DNA from: a virus
Strand: one strand, 5' to 3'
Length of the DNA: 20,716 nt
Virus record (IMG/VR): IMGVR_UViG_3300020171_000148
Coordinates: 1 to 20,716 of that record
Shown: positions 3,409 to 9,801 of the stretch, one piece after another
How the letters are laid out: the number at the start of each line of letters is the position of its first letter
Numbering within the stretch: position 1 is the stretch's first letter
The notes under the pieces: generated by a model
Database searches by the model: none
Told to the model about the DNA's origin: nothing
Seen by the model: the letters and a program-made list of their open reading frames with translations, nothing else
Made by a program: the position numbers and the translations under genes

Positions 3409-3647
3409 AAGTATTGTATCTGACTCTCCATAAAAAATGGTTCGATATGATAGCCGGTTGCGAAAAGACAGAGGAATACCGAGACCGTAAACCATATTGG
3501 ATAAAACGATTAAGAGGAAAGCGCTTTGATGTTATCCACTTCCGAAATGGTTACAGACCAACATCAAGAATAATGATGGTTGAGTGTTTGGGGATAGAAG
3601 AAAACGGTGGTGAGTTCGTTATTAAACTAGGGGAGATTTTAAAATGA
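3405..3647 (+). CDS. ASCH-domain protein
   Basis: 80 residues matching the short phage form of ASCH proteins from memory: MKVLYLTLHKKWFDMI at the start, a charged EKTEEYRDRKPYW, the FDVIHFRNGY strand, then VECLGIEE and FVIKLGEIL at the end. ASCH domains are PUA-like small beta-barrels thought to bind RNA or modified nucleotides; some are nucleases or amidohydrolases. The conserved Lys and Glu around residues 20-25 fit the family. The gene starts in an ATGA overlap with AGGAGGGG upstream and ends in another 4-bp overlap. The substrate here is unknown. Confidence 0.75.
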   Translation: MKVLYLTLHKKWFDMIAGCEKTEEYRDRKPYWIKRLRGKRFDVIHFRNGYRPTSRIMMVECLGIEENGGEFVIKLGEILK

Positions 3648-3961
3648 AACAGTGTGAATTTAGAGCTGTGACACTTAATGGAGACATCATCAGCAATATT
3701 GGTTGTGTAGAGTTTTTTGTTGACGGGCAAATCATAGTAAATGGCGAAATCCCCTGCAAGTCGATTATGCAATTAAATGATGGTATAGAATATGGTAATC
3801 AGCAAGCGTATGAATGTGGTGTCTATAATGGGCATGCAGAAGGTTTAGCGGAAGGTATCAAAGAAGTAGTGGATTGGATAAATAAAAGAAGTGACGATTA
3901 TTTTTATATAACAATACCTCAAGATGAATGGCAAGCCAAGTTAAAGGAGTGGGGCATTTAA
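3644..3961 (+). CDS. Hypothetical protein with KEVVDW...AKLKEWG C-terminal module
   Basis: 105 residues. The N-terminal half is beta-rich (TLNGDIISNIG, FFVDGQIIVNGE). The C-terminal half has EGIKEVVDWINKR and ends WQAKLKEWGI, a module found again at the ends of the genes at 7651 and 7956. The codons for K-E-W contain AAAGGAG, the likely ribosome site for the next gene, whose ATG overlaps this stop by one base. Function is unknown; shared ends point to a family of related small phage proteins. Confidence 0.6.
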   Translation: MKQCEFRAVTLNGDIISNIGCVEFFVDGQIIVNGEIPCKSIMQLNDGIEYGNQQAYECGVYNGHAEGLAEGIKEVVDWINKRSDDYFYITIPQDEWQAKLKEWGI

Positions 3962-6126: not shown

Positions 6127-6690
6127 ATGGATAAAATTAAATGTTTGTATTGTGGCAAAGAAGTTGAGGCTCAACGTAAGACAAAGAAAGTATGCTCAAC
6201 TAGGTTTGAGCAAAGGTTGCGACTGGGCTTATCTAAAGAGAGGAATTGCTTACTTTGTGGAAAGACGTTCCCTCTTGGCAAGGGTGATAATAACCGGCGA
6301 TATTGCTCTCAGTCTTGTGCCAAGAAAGCGATTGTTAAAAAGACATTGGCTTGGCATGAAGCCCACCCAGAGGCTATGGAGAAATATAACAAGAATCGTC
6401 TGGTCAAAAACACTGGTATATGGCGAGATAAGCACCATAACGAAAGGCTGGAAGCTATACGAATATTGGGGGGCAAATGCATAGTATGCGGAGTGAACAA
6501 TCCGAACTGGCTGCACATAGACTATATCCCGACAACGAGAGGGAAGCCCTATCGCCACCCTCGGCACCTGAAATACATTCAAGAAAACGCATCAGACTTC
6601 CGTCTTCTCTGTGCAAACCATCATTACGAACTTACTTTGACTGGGATGATTCAGGGAACGAAGATTACGCAAAACGCCCAGTCCTCTTAG
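6127..6690 (+). CDS. HNH endonuclease with N-terminal zinc fingers
   Basis: 187 residues. The N-terminus has a zinc-finger-like CLYCG (6-10, partner Cys near 23) and a second finger CLLCG...YCSQSC (41-64). The C-terminal HNH core has CIVCG (118-122), HID (130-132) and LLCANHHYELTLTG (160-173). Such proteins are free-standing homing-type nucleases. It has its own promoter and no ribosome site at the ATG. Its last 200 bp overlap, in another frame, the ORF that carries the cytosine methyltransferase, and it follows a broken methyltransferase start, so it most likely invaded that gene. Confidence 0.8.
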   Translation: MDKIKCLYCGKEVEAQRKTKKVCSTRFEQRLRLGLSKERNCLLCGKTFPLGKGDNNRRYCSQSCAKKAIVKKTLAWHEAHPEAMEKYNKNRLVKNTGIWRDKHHNERLEAIRILGGKCIVCGVNNPNWLHIDYIPTTRGKPYRHPRHLKYIQENASDFRLLCANHHYELTLTGMIQGTKITQNAQSS

Positions 6691-7292
6691 ACCTTTTTGC
6701 CGGAGGCGGTGGGGCAGGAATGGGATACTACCTAGCCGGATTCCGTGTTGTTGGAGTAGATATTAAACCGCAACCACATTTTCCATTTGAGTTTCACCAG
6801 GCTGATGCTCTTACATATCCCCTTGAGGGGTTTGACGCTTACCATGCTAGTCCGCCATGTCAGGCATATAGCAAAAACTGTCGGTATTGGCGGAAGATTG
6901 GTTATAAATACCCTGATTTAATTGAGCCGATTAGATTGAGATTGCAAGATACTGGTAAGTCTTGGGTTATAGAGAACGTGAAGAACTCGCCCCTTGTAAA
7001 TCCGTATCTATTAAACGGTGCTATGTTTGGGTTGTATTTACAAAAGACAAGGTTATTTGAAGTGAATTTTAATTTACCCTTTAAGTTGCTTCCGCAAAAT
7101 CAGAAACCAGTACGAGTAGGTAGGCCAGTAAAGTCCGGGCAAGTAATAAGCCCAGTGGGTCATTTCCCGAATCGTAAATATGCTGAAGAACAAATGGGAA
7201 TAGATTGGATGACAAAGCAAGAATTAACCCAAGCCATTCCGCCGGCATACACAGAATACATAGGTAAATATCTTATGGAAGTAATGATATGA
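6477..7292 (+). CDS. C5 cytosine DNA methyltransferase (compact phage type)
   Basis: The methyltransferase region is residues about 68-271: motif I LLDLFAGGGGAGMGY, the SAM-binding GVDIKPQ, catalytic motif IV SPPCQAYS (Cys128), ENV motif VI (166-168), QKTRLF (189-194) and PPAYTEYIGKYL near the end. It would methylate cytosine C5 using SAM, perhaps to shield phage DNA. The segment between motif VIII and the end is short, so the target-recognition part is small. The first 67 residues are a second-frame reading of the HNH gene and have no visible homology; the ATGs at 6477 and 6486 are the only usual in-frame starts before motif I, so the true start is uncertain. Confidence 0.8.
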   Translation: MHSMRSEQSELAAHRLYPDNEREALSPPSAPEIHSRKRIRLPSSLCKPSLRTYFDWDDSGNEDYAKRPVLLDLFAGGGGAGMGYYLAGFRVVGVDIKPQPHFPFEFHQADALTYPLEGFDAYHASPPCQAYSKNCRYWRKIGYKYPDLIEPIRLRLQDTGKSWVIENVKNSPLVNPYLLNGAMFGLYLQKTRLFEVNFNLPFKLLPQNQKPVRVGRPVKSGQVISPVGHFPNRKYAEEQMGIDWMTKQELTQAIPPAYTEYIGKYLMEVMI

Positions 7293-7357: not shown

Positions 7358-7654
7358 ATGAACAAAGACAGTGAAGAATACAAGCGAGCGGTAGAGAGTA
7401 CTGCAATATGGTTATTCAGTACCTATGAATTTGCTGAGTTAGGGCGTACATGGTTGCAATTAGAAGAAGCTGATAAGGATGTTTTTAGAGAACAGGCCGG
7501 AAAATACTTAAATTACATGGCAGACAAAGGGTTGGCTGTGTTGAATAATGACCAGGGCTTAGAATATTCACCGGATACGTCAACCGGTTCAATATACTCA
7601 ATGGATGATAGTAAAAGAGCCATGGCAAAAGCCAATTTCAGGAGGATAGTATGA
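7358..7654 (+). CDS. Hypothetical acidic phage protein
   Basis: 98 residues, helical at the N-terminus (KRAVESTAIWLFSTYEFAELGRTW would be one amphipathic stretch) and low-complexity acidic toward the end. No family or motif is recognised. Its end contains AGGAGG, the ribosome site for the next gene, with an ATGA overlap; its own ribosome site is weak. Confidence 0.55.
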   Translation: MNKDSEEYKRAVESTAIWLFSTYEFAELGRTWLQLEEADKDVFREQAGKYLNYMADKGLAVLNNDQGLEYSPDTSTGSIYSMDDSKRAMAKANFRRIV

Positions 7655-7845
7655 AAGCCGAAGAAATAGTTGAAAGTGAGGTAAAAAGGCAAGCCGAATT
7701 TGGATATGAACCAAGCTTTGAGGACATGGTTATAGCCGGAATCCAACAAGGCAGAAAGGAAGTAGTGGATTTTATAGGTGGATATGATAAACCATTCCCT
7801 AATCAAAGAGATTGGAAAACCAAATTAAAGGAGTGGAAATTATGA
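7651..7845 (+). CDS. Small paralog with KEVVDF...KLKEW C-terminal module
   Basis: 64 residues. GRKEVVDFIGGYD and DWKTKLKEWKL match the ends of the proteins at 3644 and 7956. It starts in an ATGA overlap behind AGGAGG, and its final codons contain AAAGGAG, eight bases before the next ATG. No function is known. Confidence 0.6.
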   Translation: MKAEEIVESEVKRQAEFGYEPSFEDMVIAGIQQGRKEVVDFIGGYDKPFPNQRDWKTKLKEWKL

Positions 7846-7955: not shown

Positions 7956-8198
7956 ATGGATAAAATAATAGCGGAATGTATCAGATTGTCACTAGCCGAG
8001 GAAGACCAGAACTTGGGTGATTACATATGGACGGTAACTGATGCGGATAGGGCTATATTCAAGGCTGGCATCAAGGAAGTAGTGGACTGGGTAGGAAGCG
8101 TCCCGCCCGTCTCCAAATTACCAGAAGGTACAATGAAGCATTACGCTATTTCTACGGAACAGTGGCAAGCCAAGTTAAAGGAGTGGGGGATAAAATGA
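7956..8198 (+). CDS. Small paralog with KEVVDW...QAKLKEWG C-terminal module
   Basis: 80 residues, preceded by AAGGAGG. AGIKEVVDWVG and EQWQAKLKEWGIK repeat the ends of the 3644 and 7651 products. The DNA coding for the end is identical over 26 bp to that at 3929-3954 and holds AAAGGAG, 11 bases before the next gene's ATG at 8195. The N-terminal part differs from the other two, suggesting a shared C-terminal domain on varied N-termini. Confidence 0.6.
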   Translation: MDKIIAECIRLSLAEEDQNLGDYIWTVTDADRAIFKAGIKEVVDWVGSVPPVSKLPEGTMKHYAISTEQWQAKLKEWGIK

Positions 8199-8677
8199 AC
8201 TGGGATGAGGAAGAATTACAACAGAAACTAAAGGATAATCCAGACTTGAAGATTGGAGGAATACCGTTTAACAGTGACTTAACGACCATGAAACCTGCCA
8301 AGGAATTAATGAAACTTACTAAAGTCCACAAGTACAACGTATCGGCTAAAGAAGACAGAACCTATAAAGGCATTACATACGACTCAAAGAAGGAAATGTT
8401 ATACGCACAAGAACTGGACAATAGGATCATAGCTGGCGAGATTGACTTCTGGATTAGGCAAGTACCTTTCATTGTGGGGAATGACCCGGTAACTACCTAT
8501 AAGGCTGATTTTATGACATATACATTAGATGTAATGGTGGATGCTGAAACGGGCAAAGAAGTAAACTATTGGATTGTCGCAGTCATAGAGGTCAAAGGAA
8601 CGTGGACAGCAGAAGCCAAGCGCAAGGTTAAACTCTTTAGAAAACGGTATCCAAATCTAACACTTGAGGTAGTATAA
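8195..8677 (+). CDS. DUF1064-type PD-(D/E)xK nuclease
   Basis: 160 residues from ATG 8195 (AAAGGAG upstream, ATGA overlap); an in-frame ATG at 8162 lies in the preceding gene. Residues 57-75 (YKGITYDSKKEMLYAQELD), Asp105 in YKADF, and 131-135 (IEVKG) form the acid...D...ExK pattern of the PD-(D/E)xK fold as arranged in DUF1064, a phage family usually considered a Holliday-junction-resolvase-like nuclease. The C-terminal AKRKVKLFRKRYP is also typical. It fits a DNA processing role in replication or recombination. Confidence 0.8.
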   Translation: MNWDEEELQQKLKDNPDLKIGGIPFNSDLTTMKPAKELMKLTKVHKYNVSAKEDRTYKGITYDSKKEMLYAQELDNRIIAGEIDFWIRQVPFIVGNDPVTTYKADFMTYTLDVMVDAETGKEVNYWIVAVIEVKGTWTAEAKRKVKLFRKRYPNLTLEVV

Positions 8678-8679
8678 AT

Positions 8680-8952
8680 ATGAGGATATATAAACGGGCT
8701 AAGATACCTAATGCTATGATTACGAGGTGCGACATCAACTGCCTCGGTAGTATCACCCTCGGTAGCGAGATAATGAAACGATATGGCATTGAGAATAATG
8801 AACAGGTTCACGTGCTGGGTGTTACTACCAAAGAACGGGCGGTTACTTATGTCATAGAGGGAGAAGGTGCTGAGATTTGCTGTAACGGCGGCATGGCTAA
8901 CATCTTTAAGGTGGGCGACACAGTAAATATCGTAGCGTATGAAATCATATAA
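8680..8952 (+). CDS. panD: PanD-like pyruvoyl aspartate 1-decarboxylase homolog
   Basis: 90 residues that align by eye with bacterial PanD, which makes beta-alanine from aspartate for pantothenate/CoA. Kept features, with E. coli numbering from memory: Lys8 (K9), Gly23-Ser24 (the G24-S25 self-cleavage pair that yields the pyruvoyl group) in LGSITLGSE, Arg53 (R54), Thr56-Tyr57 (T57-Y58) in KERAVTYVIEG, and Asn69 (N72) in CCNGGMA; then VGDTVNIVAYEII. Differences: Pro replaces His11, Cys replaces Tyr22, two residues are missing before the Asn, and the C-terminal extension of PanD (about 126 aa) is absent. It may be an active auxiliary metabolic enzyme or a re-used PanD fold. Confidence 0.65.
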   Translation: MRIYKRAKIPNAMITRCDINCLGSITLGSEIMKRYGIENNEQVHVLGVTTKERAVTYVIEGEGAEICCNGGMANIFKVGDTVNIVAYEII

Positions 8953-8962
8953 AGGAGAGGAA

Positions 8963-9247
8963 ATGAAAAAGAAATACCGGATAATAGTTGATGAACTGAA
9001 TGTCATTGTGCAAGAACGGAAGTTCAATAAGAAAAAGGATGATGAGGAATATTGGGTTAGTCTTGCATACTACGGAACAATCGAGGGTGCGTTGGATTTT
9101 GTTGTCGATCGTAAGATTAAGGATGCTTGGGTAGACGACCTAAAGCAAATGGTTGTTGAAATTCAGAACATCCATAAAGACCTCAAGGGATGGTCTAAGT
9201 CTATCACTGAATCTCGTACGAGCCATAAGGAAGCCATTGAAGTATAA
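8963..9247 (+). CDS. Hypothetical phage protein
   Basis: 94 residues from ATG 8963, chosen because AAAGGAGAGG lies directly upstream; the in-frame ATG at 8939 is inside the PanD-like gene. KYRIIVDELNVIVQERKF, EYWVSLAYYGTIEGAL and a C-terminal helix DLKQMVVEIQNIHKDL resemble small phage proteins (DUF5405-like) of unknown role. No catalytic motif is seen. Confidence 0.55.
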   Translation: MKKKYRIIVDELNVIVQERKFNKKKDDEEYWVSLAYYGTIEGALDFVVDRKIKDAWVDDLKQMVVEIQNIHKDLKGWSKSITESRTSHKEAIEV

Positions 9248-9262
9248 AACTAGGGGAATTAT

Positions 9263-9403
9263 ATGAACATAGAGAATCTAACCGATAAGGTACATAAGAG
9301 AGTCAATGAGACATATAAAGAGAAGGGGTACGCAGAAACCGTACCAAGATTGACTGTTAAAGCAGTATTAGAAGCTGTGGTAGAAGTAAGGAGGCGGAAA
9401 TGA
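9263..9403 (+). CDS. 46-residue hypothetical protein
   Basis: ATG 9263 follows AGGGGAATTAT. A basic, helical peptide (NLTDKVHKRVNETYKEKGY...VKAVLEAVVEVRRRK with breaks). It ends in an ATGA overlap with the next gene and its last codons supply AGGAGG for it. No family is recognised. Confidence 0.5.
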   Translation: MNIENLTDKVHKRVNETYKEKGYAETVPRLTVKAVLEAVVEVRRRK

Positions 9404-9801
9404 AAAGACAGATAGTGTTTATCAGCGGGAAGTACAGAGCGAGAACTAAACTGGGGGTGCTCTGGAACATCTACAAGGCAAGAAGGGCGGCAATTAAACT
9501 ATGGCAACGGGGGTACGCCACGATATGCCCACATTTGAACTCCGCCTTAATGCCTGGCAATCCAGACTTATTCTTAAAGGGTGACTTAAAGATACTCGCC
9601 AAGTGCCACATTATCTATATGCTGAAGAACTGGGAATACTCCGATGGTGCTTGTCTGGAGAGATTAGAGGCACAAAGGCGTGGACTTACTGTCTGGTATG
9701 AAGATAAACCAGTTGAGATTGTGGCGATGTACGACCCATGCGAATACAAAGTCGAACCAATCACATCCTTAGAACTACAGGAAGCAGGAGTGATAAAATG
9801 A
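9400..9801 (+). CDS. DUF4406-family, deoxyribosyltransferase-like protein
   Basis: 133 residues. VFISGKYR (5-12), an amphipathic helix with AAIKLWQRGYATICPHLN (about 30-47), LKGDLKILAKCHIIYML (59-75) and WEYSDGACLERLEAQRRG (77-94) match DUF4406, a family with the fold of nucleoside 2-deoxyribosyltransferases. In that superfamily the late Glu (ACLE) is catalytic. A role in nucleotide salvage or base exchange is possible but not established. It is coupled to both neighbours by 4-bp overlaps. Confidence 0.75.
   Translation: MKRQIVFISGKYRARTKLGVLWNIYKARRAAIKLWQRGYATICPHLNSALMPGNPDLFLKGDLKILAKCHIIYMLKNWEYSDGACLERLEAQRRGLTVWYEDKPVEIVAMYDPCEYKVEPITSLELQEAGVIK

Follow-up and report, generated by a model that had tools for sequence, protein, structure and literature searches.

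A phage-borne gene for a lidless PanD-family protein, a predicted self-processing pyruvoyl enzyme

PanD is a self-processing pyruvoyl enzyme that makes beta-alanine; it stands at the gate to CoA and is the target of pyrazinamide. What would a phage do with such an enzyme, and could a much shortened one still work? The question is raised by a virus fragment from IMG/VR (IMGVR_UViG_3300020171_000148), of which we analysed the whole 20,716 nt (20.7 kb, here called the window; the remainder of the phage genome lies outside it). On its plus strand, positions 8680-8952 form a 90-aa ORF from ATG to TAA, with the product MRIYKRAKIPNAMITRCDINCLGSITLGSEIMKRYGIENNEQVHVLGVTTKERAVTYVIEGEGAEICCNGGMANIFKVGDTVNIVAYEII. 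A preliminary description had taken this product for a PanD-like protein serving either as an auxiliary metabolic enzyme or as a pyruvoyl enzyme with a new substrate.

Family membership and predicted fold

In a profile search, the window protein matched PF02261 (Asp_decarbox) with E=4.2e-21 and 75.4 bits, about three times the curated cut-off of 25 bits. The best solved relative by sequence was the Francisella PanD 3oug (2.5e-12). The PanD-like character proposed for the 90-residue product is therefore not a chance resemblance, and the profile search, named beforehand as a possible refutation, matched the PanD family instead. With TIGR00223, the NCBIfam equivalog model for PanD, the score was 58.5 bits and thus below the cut-off of 106 bits. 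Part of this shortfall arises because the profile has 126 positions, ~35 of which are without counterpart in the window protein. The name PanD is thus unproven for the product, though it lies within PF02261. No informative PHROG matched it in a PHROG search. An antisense ORF at 8566-9027 was set aside, since it lies on the strand opposite to the PanD match.

We built an AlphaFold model of the window protein with 26 relatives (mean pLDDT 95.9, pTM 0.85). The comparison with PanD that had been proposed as a check gave Z 17.0 against 3oug in VIA-align (0.7 A over 88 residues) and TM 0.93-0.95 against PanD chains in Foldseek. Full-length PanD chains as a whole aligned at Z 15-17 and 0.7-1.4 A over 88-90 residues, and the first non-PanD fold followed at Z 10. 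The window protein is accordingly predicted to be a PanD double-psi barrel. Its score over the cut-off, this predicted fold and the presence of Gly23-Ser24 and Thr56 place it in PF02261.

Active-site residues kept and lost

The gene and the codons of the residues considered here are as follows (residue equivalents in E. coli PanD numbering).

8680..8952, plus strand: panD-like gene, PF02261 Asp_decarbox; predicted self-processing pyruvoyl decarboxylase, from profile and structure-model evidence
8701..8703, plus strand: codon of Lys8, equivalent by alignment to Lys9, the partner of a substrate carboxylate (role per PMC3314653)
8746..8751, plus strand: codons of Gly23-Ser24, equivalent to the Gly24-Ser25 cleavage pair, invariant in the alignment (mechanism per PMC3975893)
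8836..8850, plus strand: codons of Arg53 to Tyr57, with the equivalents of Arg54, Thr57 and Tyr58 (alignment; PMC3975893, PMC3314653)
8884..8886, plus strand: codon of Asn69, equivalent by alignment to Asn72, which hydrogen-bonds to Ser25 in the zymogen

Our alignment agreed with the residue assignments of the preliminary description: Gly23-Ser24 (G24-S25), K8 (K9), R53 (R54), T56-Y57 (T57-Y58) and N69 (N72) are retained, H11 is replaced by P10 and Y22 by C21. The C-terminal extension is lost as well: just three residues lie beyond position 90, and the chain ends directly after the barrel. Gly73 is also kept, and that description leaves out four further replacements, of Asp29 by Gly, Gly52 by Lys, Ala75 by Met and Ile86 by Asn.

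Compared with bacterial PanD (E. coli, M. tuberculosis, Francisella 3oug), the window protein shares the predicted fold, the Gly-Ser pair, Lys9, Arg54, Thr57, Tyr58, Asn72 and Gly73. It differs in its size (90 aa versus ~114-139), in its sequence (28-39% identity, with His11, Tyr22, Ala75 and Ile86 changed, and a score under the TIGR00223 cut-off) and in being without the C-terminal alpha-chain lid and the tail bound by PanZ in enteric bacteria.

Eighteen positions within the aligned span are at least 90% conserved among 14 PanD-type sequences. The window protein keeps nine of these, including all seven that contact the substrate or form the pyruvoyl group. If nine were drawn from 18, all seven functional residues would be kept with a chance of ~0.001, or ~0.03 counting His11 and Tyr22, both figures being hand calculations on residue sets picked post hoc. 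The published list of strictly conserved PanD residues (K9, H11, Y22, G24, S25, R54, T57, Y58, G73, A74, A75, I86 and N112; PMC3314653) is matched in part: K9, G24, S25, R54, T57, Y58 and G73 are kept, the residues at H11, Y22, A74, A75 and I86 are now P, C, G, M and N, respectively, and N112 is absent. Gly24, Ser25 and Thr57 were invariant in 46 of 46 aligned rows (duplicates counted). The Gly-Ser pair, whose conservation among phage homologs had been suggested as a test, was present in every viral relative found.

In E. coli PanD, Thr57 alone proved necessary for activation, and processing persists in mutants at Tyr22, Trp47, Tyr58, Ile60, Ser70 and Ile86 (PMC3975893). The Tyr22 and Ile86 changes of the window protein therefore need not block cleavage. 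As to catalysis, specificity is assigned to Arg54, pairing with a substrate carboxylate to Lys9 and proton donation to Tyr58, whereas Tyr22 has no clear role (PMC3314653). The title of 1pt1, the structure of E. coli His11Ala, calls it unprocessed, and the wild type was also crystallised unprocessed (1ppy); an Asn72Ala variant crystallised in the processed state (3tm7). In M. tuberculosis PanD the site is covered by a lid made of loops 20-24 and 119-126, and the Arg54Ala mutant has no activity (PMC6969166). The C-terminal tail of E. coli PanD, which PanZ binds (PMC4410942), is absent from the window protein. In the literature we found no assay of a PanD without the C-terminal active-site loop. 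Judged from the alignment, the window protein thus retains the residues for the chemistry, in an active site that loss of the lid would leave uncovered.

Gene neighbourhood and phage relatives

The neighbouring genes to which the text refers are these.

8195..8677, plus strand: DUF1064 / Holliday-junction-resolvase-like nuclease, upstream neighbour (PF06356, 1.3e-9; phrog_190, 1.3e-17)
8963..9247, plus strand: phrog_154, annotated replication initiation protein, downstream neighbour (DUF5405-like below cut-off)
9400..9801, plus strand: DUF4406, nucleoside 2-deoxyribosyltransferase-like (PF14359, 2.2e-8; phrog_355, 1.4e-20)

The PF06356 match bears out the DUF1064-type nuclease gene that had been placed beside the panD-like ORF. 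The latter begins 2 nt after the nuclease gene, whose stop ends at 8677, and 10 nt separate its own stop from the next ATG (8963), in a tight run of plus-strand genes. The ribosome-binding site is strong at the 8963 gene and weaker at the panD-like gene (GAGG, ten bases from the ATG), which makes coupled translation of the panD-like gene likely. Elsewhere on the plus strand are a YopX gene, HNH genes, a DnaG-type zinc-ribbon ORF, a phosphoesterase-like ORF and a DNA methyltransferase, and the minus strand carries a tail terminator, a major tail protein, a tape measure protein and a weak baseplate-hub match. PanC was sought across the 20.7 kb and not found, nor did any other pantothenate family appear among the window ORFs scanned, in keeping with the reported absence of nearby pantothenate genes. 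AGGAGG-type ribosome-binding sites, 41% G+C and the YopX gene hint at a Bacillota host; the tail proteins gave remote matches only, to phages of several phyla.

The methyltransferase-like gene (6600-7292, plus strand) resembles DNA cytosine methyltransferases (phrog_363, 2e-33; ~50% identical to mycobacteriophage methylases), and no Pfam model was reported for it at E 0.01. Three small plus-strand ORFs (3644-3961, 7651-7845 and 7956-8198) have similar C-terminal ends (KEVVDW/F ... WQAKLKEWGI or DWKTKLKEWKL), which suggests a duplicated small-protein domain.

A single-sequence scan of viral contigs detected no close relative of the window protein, and an alignment-based genome scan for close relatives returned only an ordinary bacterial PanD (L026). 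In a collection of named phages, convincing PanDs occurred only in the Rhodococcus/Gordonia phage Jace (gp87) and in Achromobacter phage 2-1 (panD). The other matches there, which were the majority (MT839897, CAKLQF020000011, OR844989 and OR848154), were rejected as phage PanDs, being flanked by panB, panC or other chromosomal genes; they are bacterial DNA under phage names and would mislead counts of phage panD genes. Scans of IMG/VR gave ~40 PanD-like loci, among them bacterial or prophage-edge cases such as L010 (with panB and panC) and L012/L013. A PanD-like gene in a phage is thus not singular but recurrent, and had been annotated earlier in Jace and Achromobacter phage 2-1. We found no study of phage PanDs in the open-access literature, to which the search was confined (subscription papers lay outside it).

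The phage PanDs fall into three types. In the first, Arg54 to His and Trp47 to Asn occur together in ~16 distinct phage sequences (L003, L020, L021, L037-L047, L049, L051 and L052), with both changes in every member, Ala74-Ala75 mostly replaced by Pro-Pro, and Gly24, Ser25 and Thr57 kept; these residues suggest that a change of substrate is likely in this group. Its named representative is the panD of Achromobacter phage 2-1 (OQ974181), which, with related IMG/VR genes, resembles the window gene in being phage-borne, in PF02261 and in Gly24-Ser25-Thr57. It has His at Arg54, Asn at Trp47 and Pro-Pro at Ala74-Ala75, whereas the window protein has Arg at position 54.

The second type is a clade with the motif GGGARLG. 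In seven records, an ABC-GNAT fusion (phrog_11143) lies just upstream of its panD, and in six of these seven the sequence just downstream matches CoA-transferase III over its N-terminal part; two of the seven records look like one phage. The cassette loci are given below.

L002, 2347-5112: cassette locus
L022, 2311-4895: cassette locus
L023, 1018-3638: cassette locus
L028, L030, L031 and L035: further cassette loci

The order is a ParB-like gene, the ABC-ATPase/GNAT fusion, the GGGARLG PanD and a short CoA-transferase-III-like ORF, and the cassette often adjoins terminase. It looks like an uncharacterised modification system using CoA or an acyl donor. Jace gp87 (NC_047974), annotated as aspartate decarboxylase, sits in this ParB / ABC-GNAT / CoA-transferase-like cassette. 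Like the window protein it is a PF02261 member of a tailed phage with the same cleavage site and substrate residues; unlike it, gp87 is full length with a C-terminal region and keeps His11 and Tyr22. The window is without the cassette, and phrog_11143, sought there, had no match. ORFs with an SGGxD motif lie at or near some phage panD genes (L041, 4222-5971; L047, 5132-6001; L033, 9215-10156) and by eye resemble PP-loop ATPases or asparagine synthetases.

The third type comprises the shortened forms, namely the window protein and L008 (IMGVR_UViG_3300020171_000350). Both lie on phage contigs, end in YEII-stop and have lost His11, and they are 41% identical, but L008 keeps Tyr22 and has Arg for Lys9. 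The L008 contig encodes a head-tail adaptor, a head completion protein, a tail-terminator-like protein and a major tail protein; its panD-like gene lies between the tail-terminator-like and major tail genes, whereas the window gene lies in a nuclease/replication-type region. A common lineage for the two phages was rejected, as none of the other window proteins matches L008. Four further phage lineages have lost His11 with Gly24, Ser25 and Thr57 intact. In the tree, the window protein forms the longest branch and no supported set contains it; neither a grouping with L008 nor one with L051/L052 gained support, and neither could be rejected (p-AU 0.46 and 0.28).

Proposed reaction and alternative readings

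The window gene encodes a phage-borne, lidless member of PF02261. We consider it more likely than not, from sequence and model, that this product cleaves itself and converts aspartate to beta-alanine. That the protein self-cleaves to a pyruvoyl enzyme, whatever its substrate, is held with good confidence; that aspartate is in addition the main substrate is held with moderate confidence. The 90-aa chain would fold as the PanD double-psi barrel and presumably assemble into a tetramer. Thr56 would hold the carbonyl of Gly23, and attack by Ser24 on the Gly23-Ser24 bond would yield a beta chain of 23 aa and an alpha chain of 67 aa, with Ser24 converted into a pyruvoyl group at the N-terminus of the latter. 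An imine could then form between this group and L-aspartate, which Lys8 and Arg53 would hold in place; CO2 would leave, and Tyr57 would reprotonate the product to beta-alanine. The most likely benefit to the phage would be beta-alanine, and hence CoA, during infection, a supply that we infer for a fragment carrying no other pantothenate gene. Such a supply is useful only where the host has the remaining pantothenate pathway.

Several observations point against this reading: the longest branch, 58.5 versus 106 bits, the loss of His11 and Tyr22, the title of 1pt1 as unprocessed and the absence of the Mtb-type C-terminal loop. Some of them would suit a non-catalytic remnant, in which the barrel serves as a binding partner or mixes into the host PanD tetramer with no pyruvoyl chemistry. 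This would account for the branch length and for changes at nine of 18 conserved positions (including His11, Tyr22, Ala75 and Ile86); the E. coli His11Ala structure, unprocessed by its title, points the same way. However, the processing and substrate residues have all been kept while others drifted, which is unlike decay, and the four other phage lineages without His11 retain Gly24, Ser25 and Thr57, so we regard a remnant as improbable. The pattern of kept and lost residues favours a working self-processing enzyme, altered as it probably is, over a relic. Least probable by far is that the ORF is no phage gene or is unrelated to PanD. Contamination does occur, since several apparent phage matches in the public phage collection come from bacterial DNA (panB or panC adjoins some of them), but here tape measure, major tail protein and tail terminator genes share the 20.7 kb contig, a second phage contig has a similar shortened gene among virion genes, and the matches to PF02261 (E=4e-21) and to PanD structures (Z 17) speak against chance.

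The substrate is the harder matter, as Arg54 and Lys9 are kept while Tyr22, Ala75, Ile86 and the C-terminal lid are lost. Of the preliminary description's alternative, the PanD family (profile, fold), the phage origin and the intact self-processing site (Gly24-Ser25-Thr57) stood; between an auxiliary metabolic gene and a new substrate the sequence does not decide. The retention of Lys9 and Arg54, which bind its carboxylates, makes aspartate the simplest reading. A serious alternative, less likely than aspartate but more so than a remnant, is a self-processing enzyme whose pocket is opened by loss of the alpha-chain lid and of Tyr22 in the beta-chain lid. It would serve some phage-specific purpose by decarboxylating an aspartate-like compound that is larger or different, perhaps one joined to a nucleotide, peptide or sugar. 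This has to be considered on account of the missing lid and of the changed pockets or non-pantothenate surroundings of other phage PanDs: the equivalents of the Mtb lid loops (20-24, 119-126; PMC6969166) are altered and missing in the window protein, ~16 distinct phage sequences combine the Arg54 and Trp47 changes, another clade sits in the fixed ABC-GNAT/CoA-transferase-like cassette and not with pantothenate genes, and only virion genes surround the shortened PanD of L008. Yet the window has no ABC-GNAT gene, and the window gene's neighbours point to no candidate substrate. In a bolder and rather doubtful form, PanD would have given rise in phages to a set of pyruvoyl enzymes with new substrates, of which the window protein is a minimal, lidless one, its open pyruvoyl site acting on an aspartate-like group of a larger molecule. 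By analogy with the Arg54-to-His clade and the cassette PanDs, such a set might possibly decorate phage DNA or another macromolecule.

Phage panD genes had already been annotated; in the searchable literature, neither the shortened lidless form nor the wider set of altered phage PanDs seems to have been studied. A natural 90-residue PanD without the C-terminal region would reveal the minimal self-processing barrel and would tell whether activity or specificity depends on the lid. Should it make beta-alanine, then phages add to host CoA at the PanD step; if it does not, phages hold unexplored pyruvoyl enzymes with changed pockets.
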